A stretch of DNA of 64,000 nt, from contig JAQBZO010000001.1 in NCBI GenBank assembly GCA_027622195.1, forward strand, positions 158,263-222,262, in the 5' to 3' direction. The notes under the pieces were generated by a model, which saw only the letters and a program-made list of their open reading frames with translations, was not told where the DNA came from and ran no database searches. This document shows, in pieces, positions 30,410 to 46,146 of this stretch (position 1 is its first letter; the number at the start of each line of letters is the position of its first letter). Both the position numbers and the translations under genes were made by a program. The DNA is from Planctomycetota bacterium (GTDB lineage: Bacteria > Planctomycetota > Phycisphaerae > Phycisphaerales > SM1A02).

Positions 30410-30602
30410 AACGATCACTCGCAGGATGCGCCGAAACGGTGAGGCGCGCGCGCTTGGTGTTGCCTTGTTGAGGAGGACATCCCGCGCACTGACCTGTTGT
30501 CTTTCGGCCGCGCGGAAGGAGTGGCCGGATCACCATCCACAATGCCGTCATTGCGGCAAGAGTCACCACCCAAAACTGCCAGTCGTCGAACGGAATGGGC
30601 AT
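30369..30602 (-). CDS. Small membrane protein, FeoB-associated Cys-containing type
   Basis: 77 residues from an ATG that overlaps the feoB stop (TGATG). One membrane helix near the N-terminus (DWQFWVVTLAAMTALWMVI) is followed by a basic tail with CAGC. Small proteins of this layout, sometimes called FeoB-associated Cys-rich membrane proteins, follow feoB in many bacteria; their function is unproven. The cysteine number here is low, so the name is tentative. Last gene of the feo unit. Confidence 0.6.
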   Translation of the reverse strand: MPIPFDDWQFWVVTLAAMTALWMVIRPLLPRGRKTTGQCAGCPPQQGNTKRARLTVSAHPASDRSKNASATDDPRAP

Positions 30603-32662
30603 CACAGCACATCCCTCGCTGGTGATTCGAACCATGTCATCAGGAAGTACGCGACCGCGCCAAGGATCCACGCGATGGCAGTCATCCAGCCGAGTTGGAT
30701 GGCGGGCCACTTCCAAGAGCCTGTCTCTCGACGCACCACGGCAAGGGTCGGCAGGCATTGCAGCGCGAGAACATAGAACACGAGCAACGACACCGTCGAT
30801 GGACGGTCGAGAAGGGGCGAGCCATCGACCCGCTTGGCGGAACGAACGAGGGTGACCGTGTCTTCGTCCACTTCTGCATTGTCGCCAGCGCCGATGAGCA
30901 CCTTGAGCGTGCTGACAAACACTTCTCGCGCGAGGAAACTCGTCATGACCGCGACAACGACTTCGCGCTCAAATCCAAGTGGACGAAAAACGGGTTCGAT
31001 GAATGCGCCGAGTTGGCCAGCTAAACTGCTGGACCGTTGAACGCCCGCTTGCTTGGCATCGGCGTCGTCCTGGGCAGCGCTTGATTCAAGTCGCAGAGCC
31101 AGTTCCGTGACTCCAGTTGATTGTTCAGCCTGTGCGAGAAGTGCCGCTGATTGGTGGCGAAGTTGAGTCACTTCCACCGTCTCGGCAGCACGCGGAAACG
31201 CGCTGAGCCACCACATCACGATGCAGATGGTGAGAATGATCGATCCCGCTTGCTTGAGGAAGAGCGCGCCTCGGTCGATGGCAGTGTGAAGCGCAACGCG
31301 CCAATCCGGAAAGCGATACGGCGGCAACTCGATCATCATGGGTCGAGGCGCGCCGGGAAGGACTGTTTTTCCCGCAATCCAAGCGGTGAACAGGGCAGCA
31401 ATGGCGCCGAGTGCGTACGCGCCGACGAATGCAGCTCCTGCAGCGATCGGATTGTCAGCGAAGAGAAGGCTCGTCACAAGGACATACACCGGCACGCGCG
31501 CGCTGCACGAAAGAAACGGCGCGACCAAGATGGTGGCCAGTCGATCTCGCGTGTTCGGAATCAGTCGTGTGGACATGATGCCAGGCAGCGCGCATGCATG
31601 ACTCGAGAGCAGCGGAATGAAGGACTGTCCTGGAAGTCCGAAGCGGCGCATCAGTCGGTCCATCGCGAAGGATGCTCGAGCGAGGTAGCCAGAATCCTCG
31701 AGCAGTGCGAGCAGGAAAAAGAGCAGACAAATCTGAGGCACAAACACCACTGTTCCTGCGATGCCGCCGACTACACCTTGTGAGAGGAGGTCCGCGATCA
31801 TGCCCGGTGGAATGACTTGGGTCATGAATCCGCCCAGATGGGCGAAGAGTGCGTCAATCCACTCCATCGGATACTGCGCCAACCAAAAAATGCTCGCGAA
31901 GAAGAGCGTCATCACGAATGCGAAGACGACGAGACCTCCGATGGGATGCGTGAACGCTGTGTCGAGTCGCTCGGTGAACGAGTCGTCGGTGAGATCGCTC
32001 TTGTGAGAGTGTCCAGCAACGTCCTGGAGTGTGCGACTGGCCCAGGCGGAAAGGGCTGCATCACCTGGTTCTCCAGCAGGAGGATCACTCTCGAGCAGTG
32101 CTGTTCTGACGCGAAATGGCCCTTGAGACTGTGTTTCGATCGCCTGAGAAAGTTGGAGACAACCTTGCCCCGTTCGTGCGGACAGTGCGATGACAGGACA
32201 TCTCAGCCGCTCGGACAGAAGTGCTGTGTCAAGAATGAGTCCCTGACGAGCCGCTTCATCGCACAGATTGAGTGCGACGACTGCACGCGTTGATCGTTGC
32301 AACACACTGGCGACGAATTGCAAGTTACGAGCAAGGTTGGTGGCATCGGCAACAATGACGACGATGTCGGGAGCCTGCTCGTCTTCTCCCTCAAGCACGC
32401 GAAGGCATACGGCACTTTCTGGCGATTGGAGATGAAGTCCATACACGCCGGGTAAATCGATGAAGTCGATCGGCGTGCCCGAGTCCGTCCATGCTCTTCC
32501 GCGATGTTCTTCAACGGTGCTGCCTGGATGATTCGCCGTATGAGATCGAAGTCCACACAGTCGATTGAAGAGAGTCGTCTTGCCGACATTCGGATTGCCG
32601 ATGAGGACAGCACGTATCGGATTCGAGACGCGCGCTTCACCATCGAATGAGTGGGACGCCAT
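30602..32662 (-). CDS. feoB: Ferrous iron transport protein B
   Basis: Inner-membrane Fe(II) uptake protein with a cytoplasmic G domain. G1 is GNPNVGKTTLFN, G3 is DLPGVYGL and the G4 position reads NLCDEA. After a linker the gated membrane part follows with the conserved SFAMDRLMRRFGLPGQSFIPLLSSHACALPGIM and CSARVPVYVLVTSLLF. The length of 686 residues is normal. Starts 8 bp after the BFD-FeoA gene and overlaps the small membrane gene downstream. Probably iron-regulated from the Fur-like promoter at about 32941-32969. Confidence 0.95.
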   Translation of the reverse strand: MASHSFDGEARVSNPIRAVLIGNPNVGKTTLFNRLCGLRSHTANHPGSTVEEHRGRAWTDSGTPIDFIDLPGVYGLHLQSPESAVCLRVLEGEDEQAPDIVVIVADATNLARNLQFVASVLQRSTRAVVALNLCDEAARQGLILDTALLSERLRCPVIALSARTGQGCLQLSQAIETQSQGPFRVRTALLESDPPAGEPGDAALSAWASRTLQDVAGHSHKSDLTDDSFTERLDTAFTHPIGGLVVFAFVMTLFFASIFWLAQYPMEWIDALFAHLGGFMTQVIPPGMIADLLSQGVVGGIAGTVVFVPQICLLFFLLALLEDSGYLARASFAMDRLMRRFGLPGQSFIPLLSSHACALPGIMSTRLIPNTRDRLATILVAPFLSCSARVPVYVLVTSLLFADNPIAAGAAFVGAYALGAIAALFTAWIAGKTVLPGAPRPMMIELPPYRFPDWRVALHTAIDRGALFLKQAGSIILTICIVMWWLSAFPRAAETVEVTQLRHQSAALLAQAEQSTGVTELALRLESSAAQDDADAKQAGVQRSSSLAGQLGAFIEPVFRPLGFEREVVVAVMTSFLAREVFVSTLKVLIGAGDNAEVDEDTVTLVRSAKRVDGSPLLDRPSTVSLLVFYVLALQCLPTLAVVRRETGSWKWPAIQLGWMTAIAWILGAVAYFLMTWFESPARDVL

Positions 32663-32670
32663 GGCCGCGG

Positions 32671-33231
32671 TTACGACGGGTTGAGTGGCTCAACCAGAAC
32701 CTGATCGGCGAGTGGTCGAGCGAGCGCGATTCGAGTGCGATCGATTCGGATGATGCACTCGTGTCCCGAACATCGCTCGACCTCGCACTGGTCTGCCAAG
32801 CCCATCGCGGCGAGGAGGCATCGGTCCGATTCGGGGAGGTGAGTGAGTGCCGAACAATCCACCCGTGCCCGCGCTCCAACGGGAAGTTGTGAGAGGGGAA
32901 TCCGCACACGCTTTTTGGACATCTCAACCGACATCTTTGCATCATATTGAGACTCGTTCTCAATATCAAGTCCGACAGATTTCTTTATCCGATTGTCCAG
33001 AATCCGCCGCTCTCGGTAGGCATCGTGCTCTCCCTCGATGATCGGAAGTTGCCCCGCCTTGTGCTGTGCATGAAGACTCTCCAGTTGAGATCGGCACCAT
33101 CCGCAACCCGTTCCTGCTCCGAGGCACTCGGTCATGAGCGACGCAACAGATGGATTTTCGCGTACGAGAAATGCGCGCAACTTCGCGAGCGACACACGAT
33201 GGCAAATGCAAACATGATCGTGCTCATTCAT
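32671..33231 (-). CDS. BFD-type [2Fe-2S] domain joined to FeoA domain
   Basis: 186 residues in one uninterrupted frame. Residues 1-55 are a bacterioferritin-associated-ferredoxin-type domain with cluster ligands Cys8, Cys10, Cys43 and Cys46 (CICHRVS ... GTGCGWC). A ~50-residue low-similarity linker follows, then a FeoA SH3-like domain from about residue 106 (VRIPLSQLPVGARARV ... DRCLLAAMGL). FeoA assists FeoB; BFD domains handle iron release electrons. The start overlaps the upstream hypothetical stop (ATGA). The linker DNA holds a promoter-like and Fur-like sequence just before Met100, so FeoA may also be made alone from 32934; no Shine-Dalgarno precedes Met100. Confidence 0.8.
   Translation of the reverse strand: MNEHDHVCICHRVSLAKLRAFLVRENPSVASLMTECLGAGTGCGWCRSQLESLHAQHKAGQLPIIEGEHDAYRERRILDNRIKKSVGLDIENESQYDAKMSVEMSKKRVRIPLSQLPVGARARVDCSALTHLPESDRCLLAAMGLADQCEVERCSGHECIIRIDRTRIALARPLADQVLVEPLNPS
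32941..32969 (-). promoter_or_regulatory. Putative internal sigma-70 promoter for feoA-feoB
   Basis: On the minus strand TTGATA (-35, 32969-32964), exactly 17 bp, then TATGAT (-10, 32946-32941); each hexamer matches consensus at five of six positions. The expected start of transcription falls on or near the ATG of Met100 at 32934, so the transcript would be leaderless or nearly so. It lies in an AT-rich island inside the BFD-FeoA reading frame. Confidence 0.6.
32944..32966. promoter_or_regulatory. Fur-box-like palindrome
   Basis: Perfect inverted repeat ATATTGAGA-N5-TCTCAATAT. Its 17-bp core fills the spacer of the promoter above and differs from the familiar Fur-type sequence TTGAGAATCATTCTCAA at two positions. 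Binding there would block RNA polymerase, giving iron-repressed feoA-feoB expression (inference). Confidence 0.6.
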
Positions 33232-35798: not shown

Positions 35799-36845
35799 TT
35801 GACTCGATGGATTGCGGTGCATTGTTTGGTTCTTGGTCTCGTCCTCGTGGGATGCGGTGACGATCGCGCGCAGGACAATGAGACTTTGGTGGTGTACGCA
35901 TCGGCCGATGAACCCGTTGCTCGCCTCATCGTCGATGCGTTCGAGAAAGAGTCTGGGATTGACGTCACGCTCCGCCTCGATTCTGAAGCATCAAAAACGG
36001 TTGGACTCGCTGAAAGACTTCGTGCTCAGCGCGCGCACCCAGAAGCCGATGTGTTTTGGAGCAGTGAATGTTTCGTGATGGATGCCCTTGCGGTCGAAGG
36101 GATTCTCACTCCACTTCCCGCCACAGTGGTTGAATCGTGGCCGCGAAAACTGGTGAGCGCAGACGATCGATGGGCGGGATTCGCGGGAAGAGTGCGCGTT
36201 GTGGTGTGGAATCCACAGAAGATCGAGGAGACCTTGGTGCCAACATCACTGGAAGGATGCTCTTCGCGTGAGAAGAACGTGACGCTCGCGATCGCCGACG
36301 TGCGATTCGGAACTACTCGTGGTCACTTCAGCGCACTTGCGGCGTTGATGAGCGACGAATCGTGGTCCAACTGGTGCCAACAACTGGCGCAATCGAATCC
36401 AATGTTGCTGCCCGGTGGGAATGCCGCCGTCGTTGACGCCGTGGCTTCTGGAGAAGCGATGGTGGGACTTACCGATTCGGACGATGCGATCGCAGCGCAG
36501 GCGCAGGGACGATCCATTGCGTGGCGTCCGATTGGACTTGGACTTGATGCAGAGTGCGGACCTCACTCGGTGTTTGTGATTCCCAATACCGTTGGCATCA
36601 TCGTCGGCGCTCGGCATCCCGATTCCGCGGCGGAGTTTGCTCAGTTTCTCCTCTCCTCCCGCGGAGAATCCATCTTGGCTCAAAGCGCAAGCGCGAATGT
36701 GCCGTTGGGGTCCGACGCGAAGAATGGCGCGGTGACCTTGGGTGATTCAATCTGCCTTGTGGATGTGCGAACCGTCGCATCAGCCATGACCCGTGCGATC
36801 GAAACATTCCTCGCTCGCGTGCGTGACGCGGCTGGTGAACGGTGA
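35799..36845 (+). CDS. Ferric-iron-type ABC transporter substrate-binding lipoprotein
   Basis: 348 residues from a TTG start preceded by GAGGGG. The signal peptide ends in a lipobox (LGLVLVGC). The mature domain opens LVVYASADEPVARLIVDAFE and has ADVFWSSE and PLPATVV, the pattern of the FutA/FbpA-like family that binds Fe(III); specificity for iron over other oxyanions or thiamine is inference. Coupled to the following permease gene by a GTGA overlap. No ATP-binding subunit lies in the window. Confidence 0.75.
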   Translation: MTRWIAVHCLVLGLVLVGCGDDRAQDNETLVVYASADEPVARLIVDAFEKESGIDVTLRLDSEASKTVGLAERLRAQRAHPEADVFWSSECFVMDALAVEGILTPLPATVVESWPRKLVSADDRWAGFAGRVRVVVWNPQKIEETLVPTSLEGCSSREKNVTLAIADVRFGTTRGHFSALAALMSDESWSNWCQQLAQSNPMLLPGGNAAVVDAVASGEAMVGLTDSDDAIAAQAQGRSIAWRPIGLGLDAECGPHSVFVIPNTVGIIVGARHPDSAAEFAQFLLSSRGESILAQSASANVPLGSDAKNGAVTLGDSICLVDVRTVASAMTRAIETFLARVRDAAGER

Positions 36846-39217
36846 TCGAGTTCGCAGGTTCAGCGCTTCTCGAGCCGTGGAGCACGACGGTGGCGCGGAC
36901 TTTCGCATGGATCATTCCCGTCGCTCTGGTTTCGGGAATACTCGGAGTCTTCATCTCGCGCAACACGCGTCCACTGCGCGGTTCATGGTGGTGGCTTGTG
37001 ATGGCCGCGATGATTCCTCCATTCGCGATGTTTCATGCTGTGTGGTCGAGGTGCGCGACCGACGCATTTCTTGCTCGACCGGTTTGCCTCGCCGCCTCGC
37101 TCGTCGTCTGGGGGACCGCGCTGTCAGCCCTCATCTCTTCCATCTGGAGTCGTTCAACCGATGCCGATGATCTCACTGCGCTCGATGGCGCAACATGGTT
37201 CGATATCGTGCGATTGGAGTTCGTGCGTCGTGCGCCCGCGGCATGTGCTGGAGCTGCGGCAGTCGCCCTCGTCTTGTTCGGAGAGTCCACCGCATTCGAT
37301 CTCGCGCAAGTGCGCACCGTCGCCTTCGAGCTCAAAGCACTCGCCGCGCTCGGCGTCTCGCTCGTTGCATTGATTCAGATCGCGTTGCCACTGCTCATCG
37401 CACTCATGGTGTGTTCGATTCTTGTGGGAAGGGGCATGGCAGGGTGGACGCTGCGAACATCCAACATCGCCTCGATGCAAGGCAAGTGGACCCTTTCGAC
37501 GAAGCGAGCGATTGGACCAATCATCCTCGGACTCATCCCAGTGATCTCGATTCTCTGCGCGCGCAATGTCTGGGAGGACGCGGCTGGTTTGCGCGCCGAA
37601 CATCTCCGAGGAATTGGTTGGTCGATCTCTGCCGCACTGTGCGCTTCCATCGTTCTGGGCAGTTTCGCAGCGGTGGCCACAACGATGATGGCCCAGTCAA
37701 TCGCCAATCGGCGCGGTCGATGGATCTTGATCGTGCTGTGTTCATCGATTGTGTTGTTTCTTGCTGCGGTTCCCGCTGCGATCCTCTCGTCGGTACTCCT
37801 TCATACTGCGGACCTCTTGTTCGAGACCACCGCCACCTCAGGTTGGTGGCTCGTGGTCCTCGGACACTCGTTGCGCGCGGCCGCCGTGGTCTGGTGCATC
37901 GCCCTTTTCGCCGCGGTGCAATGGGATCGATCGGCCTCGGATGCAGCGGCACTTCGCGGAGGTGCCACATCCTTCGCGATCGCTCTGTGGCCCACCGCGC
38001 TTCGCGTCTTTCTATCGTCCGCACTCATCGTCTTCGTCCTCTCGTTTGGAGATGTGTCCGTCGCCGGAGCACTCGAACCTGCGGGAGCGGATCGTCTCGC
38101 GACTCGGCTCATTGACGCGCTTCATTATCAAAGACCAGGTCCGATTGCTGTGCTTCTTCCGTTGGTGGGATGTGCAGCCGTGATCGCGGCGACCGTGATG
38201 GCCATCATCTCAAAACGAGTTCGAACCCTTCACCCGTGCATCATGGTGATGCTGTTTCTTCCGCTCATCTTGGCAGGATGTGCTGAGAGCGGCAGCGAAC
38301 ACTCGGTTGGCTCACCACTCTCGCATCCGAGAGTGATCGGCGCACCGGGTCGAGCGAATGGACTCTTCGAGTACCCGCGCGCGCTGGCTGTGGATCCGCG
38401 AAACGGCGACATCATTGTGATTGACAAGACGGCACGCGTTCAGCGATTTCACTCAGATGGATCGCTCGATCAAATCTGGATGATGCCCCGTTTCGAGCAG
38501 GGCAAACCAACAGGAGTCTCGGTGGCTCCAGATGGACGAGTGTTCGTGGCCGATACGCATGAGCATCGCGTGCTCATTTTCTCGAGCGACGGCAAGGAAC
38601 TGTTCTCTCTTGGACAATCAGGCACAGGCCCCGGCGAGTTCATCTATCCAACCGACATTGCCTTTCGATCGGATGGACGGATTCTTGTCAGCGAGTACGG
38701 TGGGAACGATCGCATTCAAGAGTTCACCCATGATGGCAAGTGGATCCGTTCGTTTGGAGAACGAGGTGATCCGGGTCCCGCTGAATCCATTGATGGGATC
38801 GCCAGGTTCGATCGTCCTCAGTCCATCCTGCTCGATGAGCAGGCGAATCGAATCTATGTTGCCGATGCGTGCCACCACCGCATTGTCGAACTCACGGGGG
38901 AGGGGGAATTCGTCCGATCCATCGGCGAAGCAGGAGTGGACCAAGGGCAACTGTGGTATCCGTATGGAGTCGACCGACTCGATGAACACACCCTCGTCGT
39001 GTGCGAGTTCGGCGCGAACCGACTCCAGCGGCTCGACCTCAAGACGGCGAAAGTGGGTCCCGCGTGGGGGCGCTCTGGAAGTGCGGTGGGCGAACTCGCG
39101 GCTCCGTGGAGCGTTGCTGTCTGGGACGGGCACATCATCGTCTGTGACGGACGAAACGGCAGAGTTCAAGTGGTCAGCGTGCCGTCTTCGGAAGCAATGA
39201 CGGGTAGCGATCCGTAG
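36842..39217 (+). CDS. ABC transporter permease fused to an NHL-repeat beta-propeller
   Basis: 791 residues from a GTG start. Residues 1-465 form a double permease of the FbpB/ThiP type: about 12 helices with EAA-like loops before FGESTAFDLAQ and before LSFGDVSVAGALEP. Immediately after, residues 468-480 read MVMLFLPLILAGC, a complete lipoprotein signal with Cys480, and about 310 residues of NHL repeats follow (YPRALAVDPRNGDIIVID, PTGVSVAPDGRVFVAD, YPTDIAFRSDGRILVSE, WYPYGVDRLDEHTLVVCE). The frame is continuous. Either a genuine fusion or a permease whose stop was lost in front of a lipoprotein gene; an internal start at 38243 would give the lipoprotein alone but has no ribosome binding site. 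Confidence 0.75.
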   Translation: MIEFAGSALLEPWSTTVARTFAWIIPVALVSGILGVFISRNTRPLRGSWWWLVMAAMIPPFAMFHAVWSRCATDAFLARPVCLAASLVVWGTALSALISSIWSRSTDADDLTALDGATWFDIVRLEFVRRAPAACAGAAAVALVLFGESTAFDLAQVRTVAFELKALAALGVSLVALIQIALPLLIALMVCSILVGRGMAGWTLRTSNIASMQGKWTLSTKRAIGPIILGLIPVISILCARNVWEDAAGLRAEHLRGIGWSISAALCASIVLGSFAAVATTMMAQSIANRRGRWILIVLCSSIVLFLAAVPAAILSSVLLHTADLLFETTATSGWWLVVLGHSLRAAAVVWCIALFAAVQWDRSASDAAALRGGATSFAIALWPTALRVFLSSALIVFVLSFGDVSVAGALEPAGADRLATRLIDALHYQRPGPIAVLLPLVGCAAVIAATVMAIISKRVRTLHPCIMVMLFLPLILAGCAESGSEHSVGSPLSHPRVIGAPGRANGLFEYPRALAVDPRNGDIIVIDKTARVQRFHSDGSLDQIWMMPRFEQGKPTGVSVAPDGRVFVADTHEHRVLIFSSDGKELFSLGQSGTGPGEFIYPTDIAFRSDGRILVSEYGGNDRIQEFTHDGKWIRSFGERGDPGPAESIDGIARFDRPQSILLDEQANRIYVADACHHRIVELTGEGEFVRSIGEAGVDQGQLWYPYGVDRLDEHTLVVCEFGANRLQRLDLKTAKVGPAWGRSGSAVGELAAPWSVAVWDGHIIVCDGRNGRVQVVSVPSSEAMTGSDP

Positions 39218-39228
39218 CATGGCACACG

Positions 39229-42216
39229 ATGGGTGATGGTTACCACATTGCGCTCGAGCGACCGATCGCCCTCTTCCTCCTTCTCCTCATTCCATGGATG
39301 GGAGTGTGGGCGTGGCGACATCGTGCGGCCATTGGATCCACGCGCACTTGGATCATCATCACGGTTCGATCGCTGCTCATTGCACTGCTTGCGCTGAGTC
39401 TCGCCCAGCCGACTGCACTGCTGACGGGACGCGGCGTCACATCGATGGTGGTGCTCGACGCGAGCGAGTCCATTCCTCCCGCGCTTGCTGAACGCGCCCG
39501 CAAAGTGGTTGAAACTGCCATTGCGCAGAAGACCAACACTCATGATCGACTTGGTTTGGTGATCGCGGGACGAGATGCCGTGGCGGTCTCGATGCCTTCT
39601 TCCGCGCCCAATCAACTCGATGACGCTGGGCTCACGGCACGAGACGGAACGGATCTCGATGGAGCAGTGCGACGCGCCCTCGCACTCCTTCCACCCGACA
39701 CATCGAACCGATTGTTGCTGATCAGTGATGGCAATGAAACGGTGGGCTCCCTTCGAGATGCAGCGAAGGTTGCCCGCGCGGTCTCTGTTCCGATTGATGT
39801 CATCGTGTTGCCGTATGCGCACGCGAATGAGTCAGTCTTCGAATCGCTCCGCGCGCCCACGCGGGTGCGCATTGGGCAACCCTTCGACCTCAAGGCAGTG
39901 GTTCGTTCTCAGTCGGGGGCATCGGGGCGACTCCTTCTCTGGCAAGGAGGGACGCCAGTGGATCTCGATCCCGCATCGCCTGGAGATGGAGTAGCCATCA
40001 CGCTGCGACCAGGAAGCACAACGCTCGAACTCCCTGTTCTGCTGCAGAATCCGGGTGCGACGCGCTTTCGAGCATTGTTCGAGCCAGACGCCGACTCTGG
40101 TGATGGGCTCCATCAAAACAATGTGGGTTCAGCGATCGTCTTTGTCGGAGACGAGGGTCGCGTCCTCATCCTCGATGAGACGGAATCAGAGAGTCACGTG
40201 ATCGTTGAAGCGCTTCATTCCGCGGGGATCAATGTCGATGTGATTCCTCCATCAGGAGCCGACGACCCGATGACACTCGCCGCGTACGACGCTGTGATTC
40301 TCGCGAATGTAGGTCGCTACGAAATCTCGAACGCACTCGATCGCGGACTGCGTGCGTATGTGTCCGACCTCGGCGGAGGACTCTGGATGGTGGGAGGTGA
40401 TCGTTCGTTCGGCGCGGGTGGGTGGATTGGCAGCGACACCGAAAAAGTGCTTCCTGTTCGACTCGATCCACCTGCGACTCGTGAACTCCCCCGTGGTGCA
40501 CTCGTGCTCGTGATGCATTCGTGCGAACTTCCGCAGGGAAACTATTGGGCGGAAAAAATCGCACTCGCTGCGATCGATTCGCTGAGTGCTCAGGATTATC
40601 TCGGCATCGTCTCGTTCGCTTGGTCGAATACAGGAGCCAACGGTTGCTCGTGGCAGTTTCCGATCCAACTCGCTGGAGACAAGGTCGATGCTCGCATCGT
40701 CGCGCAAACGATGAGCGTGGGTGACATGCCTGATTTCACATCGAGCATGGATCTTGCGCTTGAGGGGTTGGGCAAAGTCAAGGCTGCTCAAAAGCATGTG
40801 ATCGTCATTTCAGACGGCGATCCAAGTCCACCGAACCAAGCCACGCTGGATAGATTTCGTTCCCAAGGCATCACGATCACCACCATCATGGTCGCTGGCC
40901 ATGGAACGGCAACCGACTTGCAAAACATGCGCGCCGTCGCGGAGCAAACGGGTGGCACATTCCATAATGTCATCAACCCGAAGTTGTTGCCGCGCATCGT
41001 GACGAAGGAAGCGACACTCATTACGCGCAGTCTGATCGCCGAGGGAGAGTTCGCTCCACAAGTGGTGGCACAACTCTCGGGGCCACTCTCTGGTGTGAGC
41101 AGTGTTCCTGGAATCGATGGTTATGTGGTGACGGTTCCTCGAGAGGGACTCGCCCAAGTGGCGATCGTCAATCGTTCTGCTGACGCCAAGTCACCTGGTC
41201 GTGTTTACGATGATCCCATTTTCGCGTGGTGGAATCATGGAACAGGACGCTGCGCCGCGCTGACCACCGATATCACAGGTCGATGGGGAACGAAGTGGAT
41301 TGCGTGGGGCGGAGTGCAGCCACTGGTGGAACGCACCACGCGCTGGTTGATGCGCCCAGCGGCTCCGCAAGATGTCGTGGTGCGAACCGCGATCGATGGA
41401 GAGACGATTACCGTTGAGGTCGAAACAGTGGGAGGTGAGTCTCGCGTGTCGGGACGGTCCGCCACAATCCTTCGCCCCGATGGAACGGTTGGTGCGGTGC
41501 GACTCGATCAAGTTGCGCCGGGAAGATGGAGCGGCACTTTTGCAGGGGATCAACAAGGGGCGTATCTCGTTCAAGTTCCAGTCGCGAATGGTGCGGGCGG
41601 CGCTGTAGTGCAGGCAGCGGTCAGTATCTCGTACGCGCGCGAGTATCGGAGTGTCCGCGACAATGGTGCGCTGCTTCGTGAGGTCGCCGAATCGACAGGA
41701 GGTCGACTGCTCACGCTCGATGATGCTGTTGGTCGCAACATTTTTCTTGCCGATGGACTCACGGTTCCGCAAGCGACGCGTCGCATCTGGGATCTGCTCG
41801 CAGTCATCGCCGCCGTATGGCTCATCGTGGACATTGCCGTGCGTCGACTCGTGATCGATTCCGAGTCGGGTCGTTCACTCTTCCTTCGATTCTTCGGTGG
41901 AGGAGCATCGACCGCGACGGGGGGATCTGATGCCCTTCGCCGTATTCGTCGTGCGAAGTCAGTCGAGGCAACACCTGTCGACACCGCTTCGACAGACGAG
42001 AGGGCTACCCCTTCCCATTCTTCGAGTGCGTCCCCTCGAGTTGAAGTGTTTGGGGGATCATCCGGCACTGAGAAATCGTCGCCGCCAACCACCCATGCAG
42101 AGCAGCCATCGAATGAGAGCGAACTGCCACCGCTCGAGCGATTGCGTCGAGCGCGGGACCGAGCGCGCGACCTCACGCGAAACGCGGAAGATGGCCAAGA
42201 AAAGAGCGATGGATGA
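39229..42216 (+). CDS. Membrane protein with two vWA domains and a GATase-like domain
   Basis: 995 residues. Two N-terminal helices (ALFLLLLIPWMGVWAW, VRSLLIALLALSLAQP), a vWA domain with MIDAS VVLDASESIP and LLISDGNETVG, a glutamine-amidotransferase-like Rossmann segment (AYDAVILANVGRY, GGGLWMVGGDRSFGAGGW) without its catalytic cysteine, a second vWA-like domain (VLVMHSCELP ... VIVISDGDPSPP) with a degenerate MIDAS, and a C-terminal helix (IWDLLAVIAAVWLIVDIAV) before a charged tail. Such proteins accompany MoxR and DUF58 proteins and are thought to work as chaperone/metal-linked envelope complexes. ATGA overlap with moxR. Confidence 0.8.
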   Translation: MGDGYHIALERPIALFLLLLIPWMGVWAWRHRAAIGSTRTWIIITVRSLLIALLALSLAQPTALLTGRGVTSMVVLDASESIPPALAERARKVVETAIAQKTNTHDRLGLVIAGRDAVAVSMPSSAPNQLDDAGLTARDGTDLDGAVRRALALLPPDTSNRLLLISDGNETVGSLRDAAKVARAVSVPIDVIVLPYAHANESVFESLRAPTRVRIGQPFDLKAVVRSQSGASGRLLLWQGGTPVDLDPASPGDGVAITLRPGSTTLELPVLLQNPGATRFRALFEPDADSGDGLHQNNVGSAIVFVGDEGRVLILDETESESHVIVEALHSAGINVDVIPPSGADDPMTLAAYDAVILANVGRYEISNALDRGLRAYVSDLGGGLWMVGGDRSFGAGGWIGSDTEKVLPVRLDPPATRELPRGALVLVMHSCELPQGNYWAEKIALAAIDSLSAQDYLGIVSFAWSNTGANGCSWQFPIQLAGDKVDARIVAQTMSVGDMPDFTSSMDLALEGLGKVKAAQKHVIVISDGDPSPPNQATLDRFRSQGITITTIMVAGHGTATDLQNMRAVAEQTGGTFHNVINPKLLPRIVTKEATLITRSLIAEGEFAPQVVAQLSGPLSGVSSVPGIDGYVVTVPREGLAQVAIVNRSADAKSPGRVYDDPIFAWWNHGTGRCAALTTDITGRWGTKWIAWGGVQPLVERTTRWLMRPAAPQDVVVRTAIDGETITVEVETVGGESRVSGRSATILRPDGTVGAVRLDQVAPGRWSGTFAGDQQGAYLVQVPVANGAGGAVVQAAVSISYAREYRSVRDNGALLREVAESTGGRLLTLDDAVGRNIFLADGLTVPQATRRIWDLLAVIAAVWLIVDIAVRRLVIDSESGRSLFLRFFGGGASTATGGSDALRRIRRAKSVEATPVDTASTDERATPSHSSSASPRVEVFGGSSGTEKSSPPTTHAEQPSNESELPPLERLRRARDRARDLTRNAEDGQEKSDG

Positions 42217-43271
42217 ATCGAGTTCCCACGATTCGCGGCGATGCATCCATTGAAGAGGTACGCGATGCGTGCCAATCGTTTCGCGTAACGGCACTCGCCC
42301 TTGAAGCAGAAACAACACGGTCGGTGGTGGGGCAATCGGTGGTCGTGCGCGAGACCATCATCGCACTCCTTGCGGGAGGGCACGTACTTCTCGAGGGACT
42401 CCCTGGGCTTGGCAAGACACTCCTTGTACGAACACTCTCCGATGCACTGGGACTTTCGTTCGCGCGCATTCAATGCACCCCCGACTTGATGCCAGCTGAC
42501 ATCACCGGCACCAACATTGTGATGGATGATCCAGTCACAAGCCGCCGCGTGATCGGTTTTCGAAGTGGTCCGATCTTTCATCAATTGCTCTTGGTCGATG
42601 AAGTCAATCGCGCGACGCCGAAGAGTCAGTCCGCGCTGCTCGAAGCAATGCAAGAGAGGCAAGTGTCAGTGGGCGGAGAGACGCGTCCACTTCCCACGCC
42701 GTTCTTCGTGATGGCGACGCAGAATCCAATCGAGCAAGAGGGCACCTATCCATTGCCCGAAGCTCAATTAGATCGCTTCATGCTGAAGGTCTTGGTTCCT
42801 GCAGTGACGAGAGAGACCCTTCAACAGGTCTTGGCGCGAACAACGACCGCTGCTGATCCCGTCGTGTCGCGAGTGCTCGACGCGGATGGAATCGCATCGG
42901 CGATCGCACTTGCAAAATGGATCGCCGTTGCGCCGCATGTCGCTGACTTCGCCATTCGACTCGTTCTCTCAACGCATCCCGGAGGGGACCATTCTCCCAA
43001 AGGGTTCGATCGTTGGATCGTGACCGGCGCAAGTCCGCGTGCGGTGCAGGCTCTCGTCTCGTGCGCGAAGGTTCGAGCACTTCTGGACGGTCGATTCGCC
43101 ATCGGAACGGATGACATCGCGGCGTTGGCGCCCGCGTGTTTGCGTCACCGCATCGTCAGGTCATTTGAAGCCGAAGCGGATGGACGATCGACCGATTCCA
43201 TCATTGCGGACTTGCTCCAACGTGTAGACCGTGGCGTCGTTGCCCACACTGTGGCGGGGGTGCACGCATGA
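42213..43271 (+). CDS. MoxR-family AAA+ ATPase
   Basis: 352 residues. Walker A LEGLPGLGKT, the MoxR signature RIQCTPDLMPADITGT, Walker B LLLVDEVNRATPKSQSALLEAMQERQV and sensor region MATQNPIEQEGTYPLPEAQLDRF. MoxR ATPases act with vWA proteins in assembling or activating partner proteins, for example metal-containing enzymes. Overlaps its neighbours by ATGA on both sides, placing it between the double-vWA and DUF58 genes. Confidence 0.93.
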   Translation: MNRVPTIRGDASIEEVRDACQSFRVTALALEAETTRSVVGQSVVVRETIIALLAGGHVLLEGLPGLGKTLLVRTLSDALGLSFARIQCTPDLMPADITGTNIVMDDPVTSRRVIGFRSGPIFHQLLLVDEVNRATPKSQSALLEAMQERQVSVGGETRPLPTPFFVMATQNPIEQEGTYPLPEAQLDRFMLKVLVPAVTRETLQQVLARTTTAADPVVSRVLDADGIASAIALAKWIAVAPHVADFAIRLVLSTHPGGDHSPKGFDRWIVTGASPRAVQALVSCAKVRALLDGRFAIGTDDIAALAPACLRHRIVRSFEAEADGRSTDSIIADLLQRVDRGVVAHTVAGVHA

Positions 43272-44185
43272 GCAATGACCCAACACGCCCTCGCAAGGTC
43301 GATGATCTCATCGACTCTCGACTCATGGCGCGACTCGACACACTCGATGTGGTGAGCCGCAAGATATTCCTCGGCAAGATTCAGGGAGAAAGACGGTCGC
43401 GCCGTCGAGGACAAAGCGTCGAGTTTGCCGATTACCGTCCGTACAGTCACGGCGACGATCTTCGCTTTGTCGATTGGAACATTTACGGTCGACTCGATCG
43501 GTTGTTTCTGAAACTGTTCCTCGAGGAAGAAGATCTTTCGATCGCCATTGCCATCGACACGAGTGGGTCCATGGATACTGGCACTCCCAACAAGCTCGAC
43601 TTCGCACGCCGACTTGCGATGGCGCTGGGGTACATCGGACTGGTGAATCAAAGTCGCGTGGCCCTTTTCGGCTTTGGTGCGAATCGCACCGAGCGTCTCA
43701 TCGGACTTCGAGGTCGCCGTCGCACGCGCGAGATGGGTGAGTGGCTCCTTGGGCTCGAGAGCGGTGGAGATGCTGATTTCACTTCGTCCATGCGATCCAT
43801 CTCGCTTGCTGGGCAAGGTCGAGGTATTTTGATTGTGCTCTCAGACCTTCTTCTGGCCGAGGGAGCTGAAGCAGGACTGCGTGCCGTGGCGGGCCGTGGA
43901 TTCGATGTGTTCGCGATCCAACTCCTCTCTCCGGAGGAGGTCGATCCCGCATCAGGATCGCTCTCTGGAGATCTGCGATTGACCGATGTCGAGCGTGATG
44001 CGCCGATTGAAGTCTCGATCACCTCACGCACATTGGATGAGTACAAGACCAGACTCAACGAATACACGGCGAAGTTGCGCGATTTCTGTGTGCAGCGCGG
44101 CATCACACACATGGTCGTGCGGACCGATGTGCCGATGGATGAATTGGTGATCGATTACCTGCGTCGACGAGGGTTGCTGCGATGA
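43268..44185 (+). CDS. DUF58 domain protein
   Basis: 305 residues. The DUF58 signature is visible: RRGQSVEFADYRPYSHGDDLRFVDWNIYGR followed by LFLKLFLEEEDL, then a vWA-like fold with IAIDTSGSMDTGTPNK, and ILIVLSDLLLAEGAEAGL. Partner of MoxR in nearly all known MoxR operons; function as an assembly factor is presumed. ATGA overlaps on both sides. Confidence 0.92.
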   Translation: MSNDPTRPRKVDDLIDSRLMARLDTLDVVSRKIFLGKIQGERRSRRRGQSVEFADYRPYSHGDDLRFVDWNIYGRLDRLFLKLFLEEEDLSIAIAIDTSGSMDTGTPNKLDFARRLAMALGYIGLVNQSRVALFGFGANRTERLIGLRGRRRTREMGEWLLGLESGGDADFTSSMRSISLAGQGRGILIVLSDLLLAEGAEAGLRAVAGRGFDVFAIQLLSPEEVDPASGSLSGDLRLTDVERDAPIEVSITSRTLDEYKTRLNEYTAKLRDFCVQRGITHMVVRTDVPMDELVIDYLRRRGLLR

Positions 44186-46146
44186 CTTGGCTCGACCCAT
44201 TCGCTGGATTGCTCGCGTTGGCCGCGCTCCTTCCTCCATTGGTGGCGTTGTACTTTCTGAAACTACGGAGAAAGGATCGAACGATCTCGTCCACACTCTT
44301 GTGGCGTACTGCGACGGCGGATCTTCGAGCGAACACTCCATTTCAGCGATTGCGATTCAGCATTCTGTTGATGCTGCAACTCTTGGTGCTCGCCCTCCTC
44401 GCGTTCGCACTTGCTCAGCCTGAGGTGTCGGGTGGAGCGCGCGCCGCTCGCCATGCCCTGTTGGTCGATCGGTCCTTGAGCATGCAAACGAAGGACGCAG
44501 GCGCAGATGCGACTCGATTCGCCGAAGCGATCGAGCAAGCGCACGAGCGTGTCGCTGCACTGCACGGTGGTGGATTCTGGTTTGGACAAACGCCCGCCAT
44601 CATGGTCGTCTCCTTTGCATCGACCGCCGAAGTCTTGACTGGATTCACCGATGGTCGTGCACAAGTCGACGCCGCGATCGGCGCGATCGAACCCACCGAC
44701 GCATCGACTCGACTCGCCGATGCGATTGCCCTTGTTCGCGCGGCACTCACGCCTGTCAATCCCGATGATCCCAATGCCGCGGCTCCCGATGAGATCGTGA
44801 TCGAGGTGTTCTCGGATGGGCGCATCGACGACATCGCATCGATCGCCCTTCGCCCAGAAGAGCGCGTTTTGTTTCATCCGATCGGAAAGGCGGCGACCTC
44901 GAATACCGCGGTCGCTGCGGTGGGCGTGGCGCGCGATCCAAAGCAACCAGCCGATGTGAAAACGCTCGCGCGGCTCTCCCATTTCGATACCACTTCGAGA
45001 ACGGTGGATGTTGAACTCCTTGTCAATGGGCGTGTGCGAAGTGTCTTGCCTGAGCCGATCGAGATTCCAGCGCAAAGTGATGATCCACTCCTGGGCATTC
45101 TTCCAGGCGAAATCGAGATTGCGTTTCCTCCACTCTTACTTCCAGACGGTGGAGTCATTGAAGTGCGCATCGTCGAGTCCGACGCCCTCAAGGACGATGA
45201 CCTTGGAGCGGTGGTTGCGGTGCCACCACAACCACTGCGCATTCTCCTCGTCGGCGGTGAAGGATTCATCATTCGATCAGCGCTCGAGTCGCTCGGTCCT
45301 CGCGAGTTGATGGAGATGACCACCGAGGAGTTTGAGGCGGCGACTCGCGCTGATCCCGCATCACTCCAGTCATTCGATGTGATCGTCTTGCACGGAGCAC
45401 TTCCGGCCACGGCTCCCACGGCGCGATACCTCGTGTTCGGTGGTGGCGAGGGGATTTCTGGAGTCGAGGCGTATGGCGAGAAGAGTGATGCATTCGCCGT
45501 GGGCAGTCGACCCGACCACCCGCTGATGCGATTCGTAAGTCTCGATGAACTGTTCGTCCATTCCCATCAAGCGGTCGCCGCAACAGAACGAGGAGAAGTC
45601 ATCGTCGATGGATCCGAGGGACCGCTGGTCCTCACCATCACAGCGCCCGGGACACAGGTTGTACTCGTGACATTCGATCCTCTCGATAGCAATTGGCCAT
45701 TTCAGCGTGGGTTTCTTAACTTTGTCGCTAATAGCGTGCAGTGGTTAGCAACCTTCTCACGACCCGTCTCTGATGCCCCGTTCAAACCCGGTGATGTGGT
45801 TTCAGTGATGGTTGGAGCCGCTGCGATTCCCGTTTCCATTTTGCATCCTTCTGGGGAAGAGATCACGGTGACCTCTGGATCAGACGGAATTGCTTCGGTG
45901 GGTCCACTCATGCGCACCGGAGTGTGGACCGTAAAATGGAGCGGTGGCGATCGTCGCATCGCCGTGGCGTCGAGGGATTTGATGGAGTCGCGCGTGAACG
46001 CTGTTGAATCGCTTGAGTTCGCCGACGAAACGATCGCCGGCAGAACGAGCGGAGGACTCTCGCGAAGTGCCCTTTGGCCGTGGGTCCTTCTCGCCGCCGT
46101 CACACTCTTGATTGTGGAGTGGTGGTGGTACCTGAGGCAGGTGTGA
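44182..46146 (+). CDS. BatA-type N-terminal membrane domain plus vWA protein
   Basis: 654 residues. It begins with the BatA signature (WLDPFAGLLALAALLPPLVALYFLKL, then TLLWRTATADLRANTPFQRL and a second helix LLMLQLLVLALLAFALAQP). A vWA domain follows with MIDAS ALLVDRSLSMQTKD and IVIEVFSDGRIDD, then a beta-rich extracytoplasmic part and a C-terminal helix (LWPWVLLAAVTLLIVEWWWYL). Last gene of the unit; its 3' end overlaps the convergent TPR-YggX gene by 47 bp. Confidence 0.88.
   Translation: MTWLDPFAGLLALAALLPPLVALYFLKLRRKDRTISSTLLWRTATADLRANTPFQRLRFSILLMLQLLVLALLAFALAQPEVSGGARAARHALLVDRSLSMQTKDAGADATRFAEAIEQAHERVAALHGGGFWFGQTPAIMVVSFASTAEVLTGFTDGRAQVDAAIGAIEPTDASTRLADAIALVRAALTPVNPDDPNAAAPDEIVIEVFSDGRIDDIASIALRPEERVLFHPIGKAATSNTAVAAVGVARDPKQPADVKTLARLSHFDTTSRTVDVELLVNGRVRSVLPEPIEIPAQSDDPLLGILPGEIEIAFPPLLLPDGGVIEVRIVESDALKDDDLGAVVAVPPQPLRILLVGGEGFIIRSALESLGPRELMEMTTEEFEAATRADPASLQSFDVIVLHGALPATAPTARYLVFGGGEGISGVEAYGEKSDAFAVGSRPDHPLMRFVSLDELFVHSHQAVAATERGEVIVDGSEGPLVLTITAPGTQVVLVTFDPLDSNWPFQRGFLNFVANSVQWLATFSRPVSDAPFKPGDVVSVMVGAAAIPVSILHPSGEEITVTSGSDGIASVGPLMRTGVWTVKWSGGDRRIAVASRDLMESRVNAVESLEFADETIAGRTSGGLSRSALWPWVLLAAVTLLIVEWWWYLRQV

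Follow-up and report, generated by a model that had tools for sequence, protein, structure and literature searches.

A single open reading frame of a planctomycete genome joins an ABC permease to an NHL beta-propeller through a lipobox situated deep within the protein, a fusion that has been retained in the genomes of well over a hundred planctomycetes. The frame, at 36842-39217 on the forward strand of the window (the whole stretch of DNA analysed here, 64,000 nucleotides), is free of stops from its GTG start to its terminal TAG and encodes 791 amino acids. These comprise, in order, an ABC permease of the FutB/FbpB type, a basic patch, a 13-residue hydrophobic helix, the lipobox LAGC480 and a six-bladed NHL propeller. 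A permease running through a lipobox into NHL repeats with no intervening stop had been described in a first-pass annotation of this DNA, and that description is confirmed. The product is probably a polyprotein whose internal type II signal would be lipidated by Lgt and cut by LspA, with the signal helix left on the permease, a reading in which the cut is deduced from sequence features. The features concerned are the following.

30602-32662: FeoB, assigned by reading
35799..36845, forward strand: substrate-binding lipoprotein gene with its own N-terminal lipobox, LVGC (Pfam SBP_bac_11, 5.4e-14)
36842..39217, forward strand: fused ORF of permease, internal lipoprotein signal and NHL propeller (sequence)
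36842..38209, forward strand: permease part, residues 1-456, FutB/FbpB-type (profile match to 9j4r_A; AlphaFold helices)
38210..38233, forward strand: basic n-region, residues 457-464 (SKRVRTLH), predicted to be cytoplasmic (sequence; charge in homologues)
38234..38269, forward strand: hydrophobic h-region, residues 465-476 (predicted helix 465-477; length of the uncharged run)
38270..38281, forward strand: lipobox L477-A-G-C480, predicted to be cut by signal peptidase II after G479 (invariance of C480)
38282..39214, forward strand: six-bladed NHL beta-propeller, residues 481-791, predicted to be periplasmic (Pfam NHL; PDB folds; pLDDT)
39229..42216, forward strand: next gene, a VWA-domain protein outside the fusion (Pfam)

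The fused reading frame and its neighbourhood

The permease half, taken alone, has no Pfam match, but its family profile matches the solved iron ABC permease 9j4r_A end to end (E 4.8e-22, profile positions 24-514), and about 12 transmembrane helices are predicted in it, the last at residues 432-459. The propeller part is matched by Pfam NHL (E 1.6e-29), and PDB structures with an NHL fold resemble it, 6xg7 with a TMt of 0.89. Between them, residues 468-480 read MVMLFLPLILAGC, with the codon for Cys480 at nucleotides 38279-38281, and LAGC480 conforms to L(VI)-A(STVI)-G(AS)-C, which PMC6952399 gives as the consensus for LspA. An AlphaFold model of the fused protein, built from 44 fused homologues, has a mean pLDDT of 86; permease and propeller are both modelled confidently, most propeller blocks exceed 90, and the junction is a helix of 13 residues (465-477) followed by a stretch without confident structure (479-487). 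Such a modelled helix and disorder would be expected of a signal peptide with its cut site, and equally of a flexible linker. PLVGC444, within the last permease helix, was considered as a second lipobox and rejected, as that helix is expected to run from outside to inside and its Cys is not invariant. Elsewhere in the 64-kb window, one weak candidate for an internal lipobox was found, on the minus strand.

The TGA of the binding-protein gene overlaps the permease GTG at 36842. The binding protein is weakly similar to 2-aminoethylphosphonate binders, at scores below the cut-offs, and for the permease the nearest match is an iron transporter. Downstream of the fusion, the forward strand at 39229-46146 encodes a VWA protein, a MoxR-like ATPase, a DUF58-like protein (by reading) and a second VWA-like gene. 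Beside FeoB, a short minus-strand ORF (32671-33231) appears, by reading, to combine in one chain a Bfd-like [2Fe-2S] N-terminus and a FeoA-like C-terminus.

Conservation of the fusion and of its lipobox

Relatives were collected by a propeller-profile search over the class (397 genomes) and the phylum (294 genomes), and the fetched loci were then classified. The 217 distinct sequences comprise 136 propellers fused to a permease, 18 fused to an ABC ATPase and 63 encoded separately. Both congeners, and nearly the whole family, carry the same fusion in a single frame, so the condition under which the first-pass annotation would have been refuted, two genes in all close relatives, did not apply. 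Fused relatives occur in Phycisphaerales and Sedimentisphaerales and elsewhere among the planctomycetes, one of them on a closed chromosome, CP070772.1. The genome of the window is itself a draft of 46 contigs and 88% completeness, and a missed stop or frameshift in metagenome-assembled genomes might be suspected; the same continuous frame in more than 100 distinct sequences, the closed chromosome among them, makes an artefact of assembly or annotation exceedingly improbable. By the same recurrence, an assembly error or a stop lost in this genome only is ruled out. The loss of a stop, as had been proposed, nonetheless holds as evolutionary history, given the state changes and in-phase stops described below; it is old and repeatedly kept, and is not a defect of this genome. 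Locus L063 is an additional, diverged copy of the fusion gene within a single genome, and its lipobox is retained. At four loci (L099, L110, L115 and L145) the frame is open further upstream, but a triple fusion with the binding protein was rejected there, as the extra residues resemble GC-rich, wrong-frame translation and not a binding protein.

The separate propellers usually look like normal lipoproteins, with a lipobox in 56 of the 63. At six loci (L232, L240, L241, L242, L248 and L271) the propeller frame lies directly behind the permease stop codon and in phase with it, with the propeller start codon further downstream, and among the remaining separate loci are some where permease and propeller genes overlap or lie close together. 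The propeller tree, a quick maximum-likelihood tree with many weak branches, shows 19 changes among the permease-fused, ATPase-fused and separate states, in which gains are indistinguishable from losses. Its starred branches force at least seven changes for the permease fusion and at least two for the ATPase fusion. That one-frame and two-gene states replace each other suggests that their products are equivalent, and repeated swapping is what would be expected if the fused product ends as two proteins.

In alignments of 31 and 44 sequences, the junction, which separates H428 of the permease from the propeller, has Cys480 as its sole invariant residue. A junction Cys preceded by Gly, Ala or Ser is present in 136/136 permease fusions and 18/18 ATPase fusions, counts that come from related and thus non-independent sequences and for which, where several Cys were possible, one so preceded was preferred; the alignments are free of that bias. 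Among 823 other permease cysteines, only 32% have such a neighbour. Of the 136 permease-fused proteins, 116 have a strict lipobox at the junction, as against 0.62 per permease body of about 505 amino acids. The geometry is likewise that of a signal peptide: in 97% of permease-fused homologues the 12-residue n-region carries a net charge of +1 or more, and the uncharged run up to the Cys has a median length of 16 residues in fused proteins and 16 in free lipoproteins, compared with 25 in permease helices. From the HY motif to the Cys, fused proteins span 50 residues, fewer than the 34 of a separate permease tail plus the 26 of a free signal peptide, which suggests a merger of the cytoplasmic tail with the n-region. 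The junction Cys is missing from five free propellers in which the region is complete (L202, L209, L264, L277 and L278; the last two have a plain hydrophobic segment near that position) and from no fused one (Fisher p 0.0016, uncorrected for relatedness).

In the second branch, the same lipobox and propeller follow a cytosolic ABC ATPase (loci L068, L069, L070, L184-L190, L192-L195, L203, L205 and L274-L276). These proteins possess the Walker A and signature motifs and mostly Walker B as well; the ATPase part of L069 matches Pfam ABC_tran (E 3.3e-25), and its gene adjoins those of a binding protein and a permease. The hydrophobic segment comes immediately after the C-terminal part of the ATPase. 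The ATPase fusion is the signal module placed behind a different cytoplasmic C-terminus. An FbpC-like ATPase gene was found in none of the 26 permease-fused loci with flanks, nor between 33000 and 46000 in the window, although permease-fused clusters that have no ATPase gene nonetheless have a binding protein and a permease. The closest relative of the ATPase in the genome of the window lies on another contig (32% identity), and the permease may therefore use an ATPase encoded elsewhere. The permease-fused clusters must either draw on an ATPase from elsewhere or form a complex that works in another way.

Proposed processing and competing explanations

Retention of the fusion in more than 100 genomes suggests that one long protein is made and subsequently cut by the lipoprotein enzymes, both of which the genome encodes (Lgt, PF01790, 3.8e-51; LspA, PF01252, 9.2e-27). 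In the proposed sequence of events, the ORF would be translated as one polyprotein, and the permease half would fold with its C-terminus in the cytoplasm. Permeases of the FutB/FbpB kind have a cytoplasmic EAA loop with two further helices behind it; this places the permease C-terminus inside, as a following signal peptide would need. Since the ATPase is cytosolic, its C-terminus is inside as well, and the topology that the signal requires would thus be provided by both partners. The basic patch, together with the short hydrophobic helix, would next serve as an internal type II signal peptide, N-terminus inside and C-terminus outside, sending the propeller across the membrane, whereupon Cys480 would be lipidated by Lgt and the chain cleaved by LspA just before it. 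Two products are expected: a permease extended at its C-terminus by the retained signal helix, and a free propeller lipoprotein, formed in a one-to-one ratio with the permease and presumably working with the same transporter. A mid-protein cut by signal peptidase II that releases a lipidated propeller, one of the possibilities raised in the first-pass annotation, offers the best fit to the evolutionary evidence, with the cut itself as its presumed step.

An ordinary lipoprotein with an N-terminal signal might instead arise if ribosomes restarted in the last permease helix or in the loop behind it, as had also been proposed. An ATG 27 codons before Cys480 would yield MAIISKRVRTLHPCIMVMLFLPLILAGC, a plausible signal peptide, and 97% of fused genes have some ATG, GTG or TTG close to the junction, so separate initiation is conceivable in any one species. 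In-frame start codons are, however, similarly frequent elsewhere in the permease: 62% of permease fusions have an ATG close to the junction, 55% of control windows inside the permease contain one, and so do just 28% of ATPase fusions. The combination of ATG, basic residue and Shine-Dalgarno-like motif is seen in 1% of fused genes and 3% of controls, compared with 18% of free lipoprotein genes. The ATG of the window is missing from both congeners, and across these three species no candidate start has a Shine-Dalgarno-like motif. Planctomycetes often do without such motifs, for which reason their absence is weak evidence against a restart. Internal initiation is disfavoured on this showing, as starts show no enrichment relative to the control windows and the candidates carry no Shine-Dalgarno motif, and it is unlikely to be the source of the propeller.

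Alternatively, the protein may stay intact, Cys480 perhaps being lipidated, with helix 465-477 crossing the membrane as a 13th segment and keeping the propeller above the permease. Such a tether would suit a fusion that is old and kept, and a conserved lipobox is also compatible with lipidation in which no cutting follows; fusions of transporters to further domains through extra anchor helices, of the OpuABC type, do exist. A tether, however, needs neither the Cys nor the small residue before it, yet both are kept in 154/154 fusions. The hydrophobic run is shorter than the typical helix of this permease, and repeated swaps with the two-gene form would be unexpected if the link itself mattered. 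Permanent attachment is accordingly a minority reading of low probability, and processing by LspA is preferred. A broader reading is about as likely as not: Planctomycetota may use LspA as a polyprotein-processing protease that frees lipoproteins carried at the C-terminal end of a polytopic permease or of a cytosolic ATPase, the spent signal becoming the C-terminal membrane anchor of the upstream protein and the ratio of the two being fixed at one to one.

Comparison with known systems

Lipoprotein signals are normally sought at N-termini only, and LspA is the target of globomycin and myxovirescin. Were the internal lipobox used as proposed, lipoproteomes would be incompletely predicted, the substrate range of LspA would be wider than assumed, and bacteria would possess a virus-like polyprotein scheme. 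The two upstream partners, along with the natural one-gene and two-gene forms, make the processing directly testable. The permease, the propeller and the maturation of lipoproteins each belong to a known kind; neither the term "internal lipobox" nor a mid-protein lipobox kept across a phylum, with its putative cut, was found in the open literature, most subscription papers lying outside the search.

The fused proteins share with substrates of Lgt and LspA the basic n-region, the short h-region and the lipobox, and free homologues of the propeller resemble ordinary lipoproteins. They differ from these in that some 300-650 residues of the ORF, making up a polytopic permease or a cytosolic ATPase, precede the signal; in the protein of the window it occupies residues 457-480 of 791, with no conserved internal start. 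To our knowledge, the nearest precedent for a cut at an internal signal is FbcH, the cytochrome b/c1 precursor of Bradyrhizobium, in which one ORF encodes a polytopic protein and an internal signal and the product is cut into two proteins. Here, too, one ORF holds two proteins with a signal sequence between them, although FbcH is cut by signal peptidase I, involves neither lipobox nor lipid, and comprises different proteins. Viral polyproteins cut by signal peptidase follow the same logic of internal signal and cut, but rely on the eukaryotic signal peptidase complex, undergo no lipidation in the process, and are unrelated. With permeases of the FutB/FbpB type, the fused protein shares homology over the whole permease and an adjacent substrate-binding protein. 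In OpuABC and GlnP, as here, an ABC transmembrane domain is joined to an extracytoplasmic domain. Those domains stay attached and bind substrate, whereas the domain found here is an NHL propeller behind an invariant lipobox, with a separate substrate-binding protein encoded next door.
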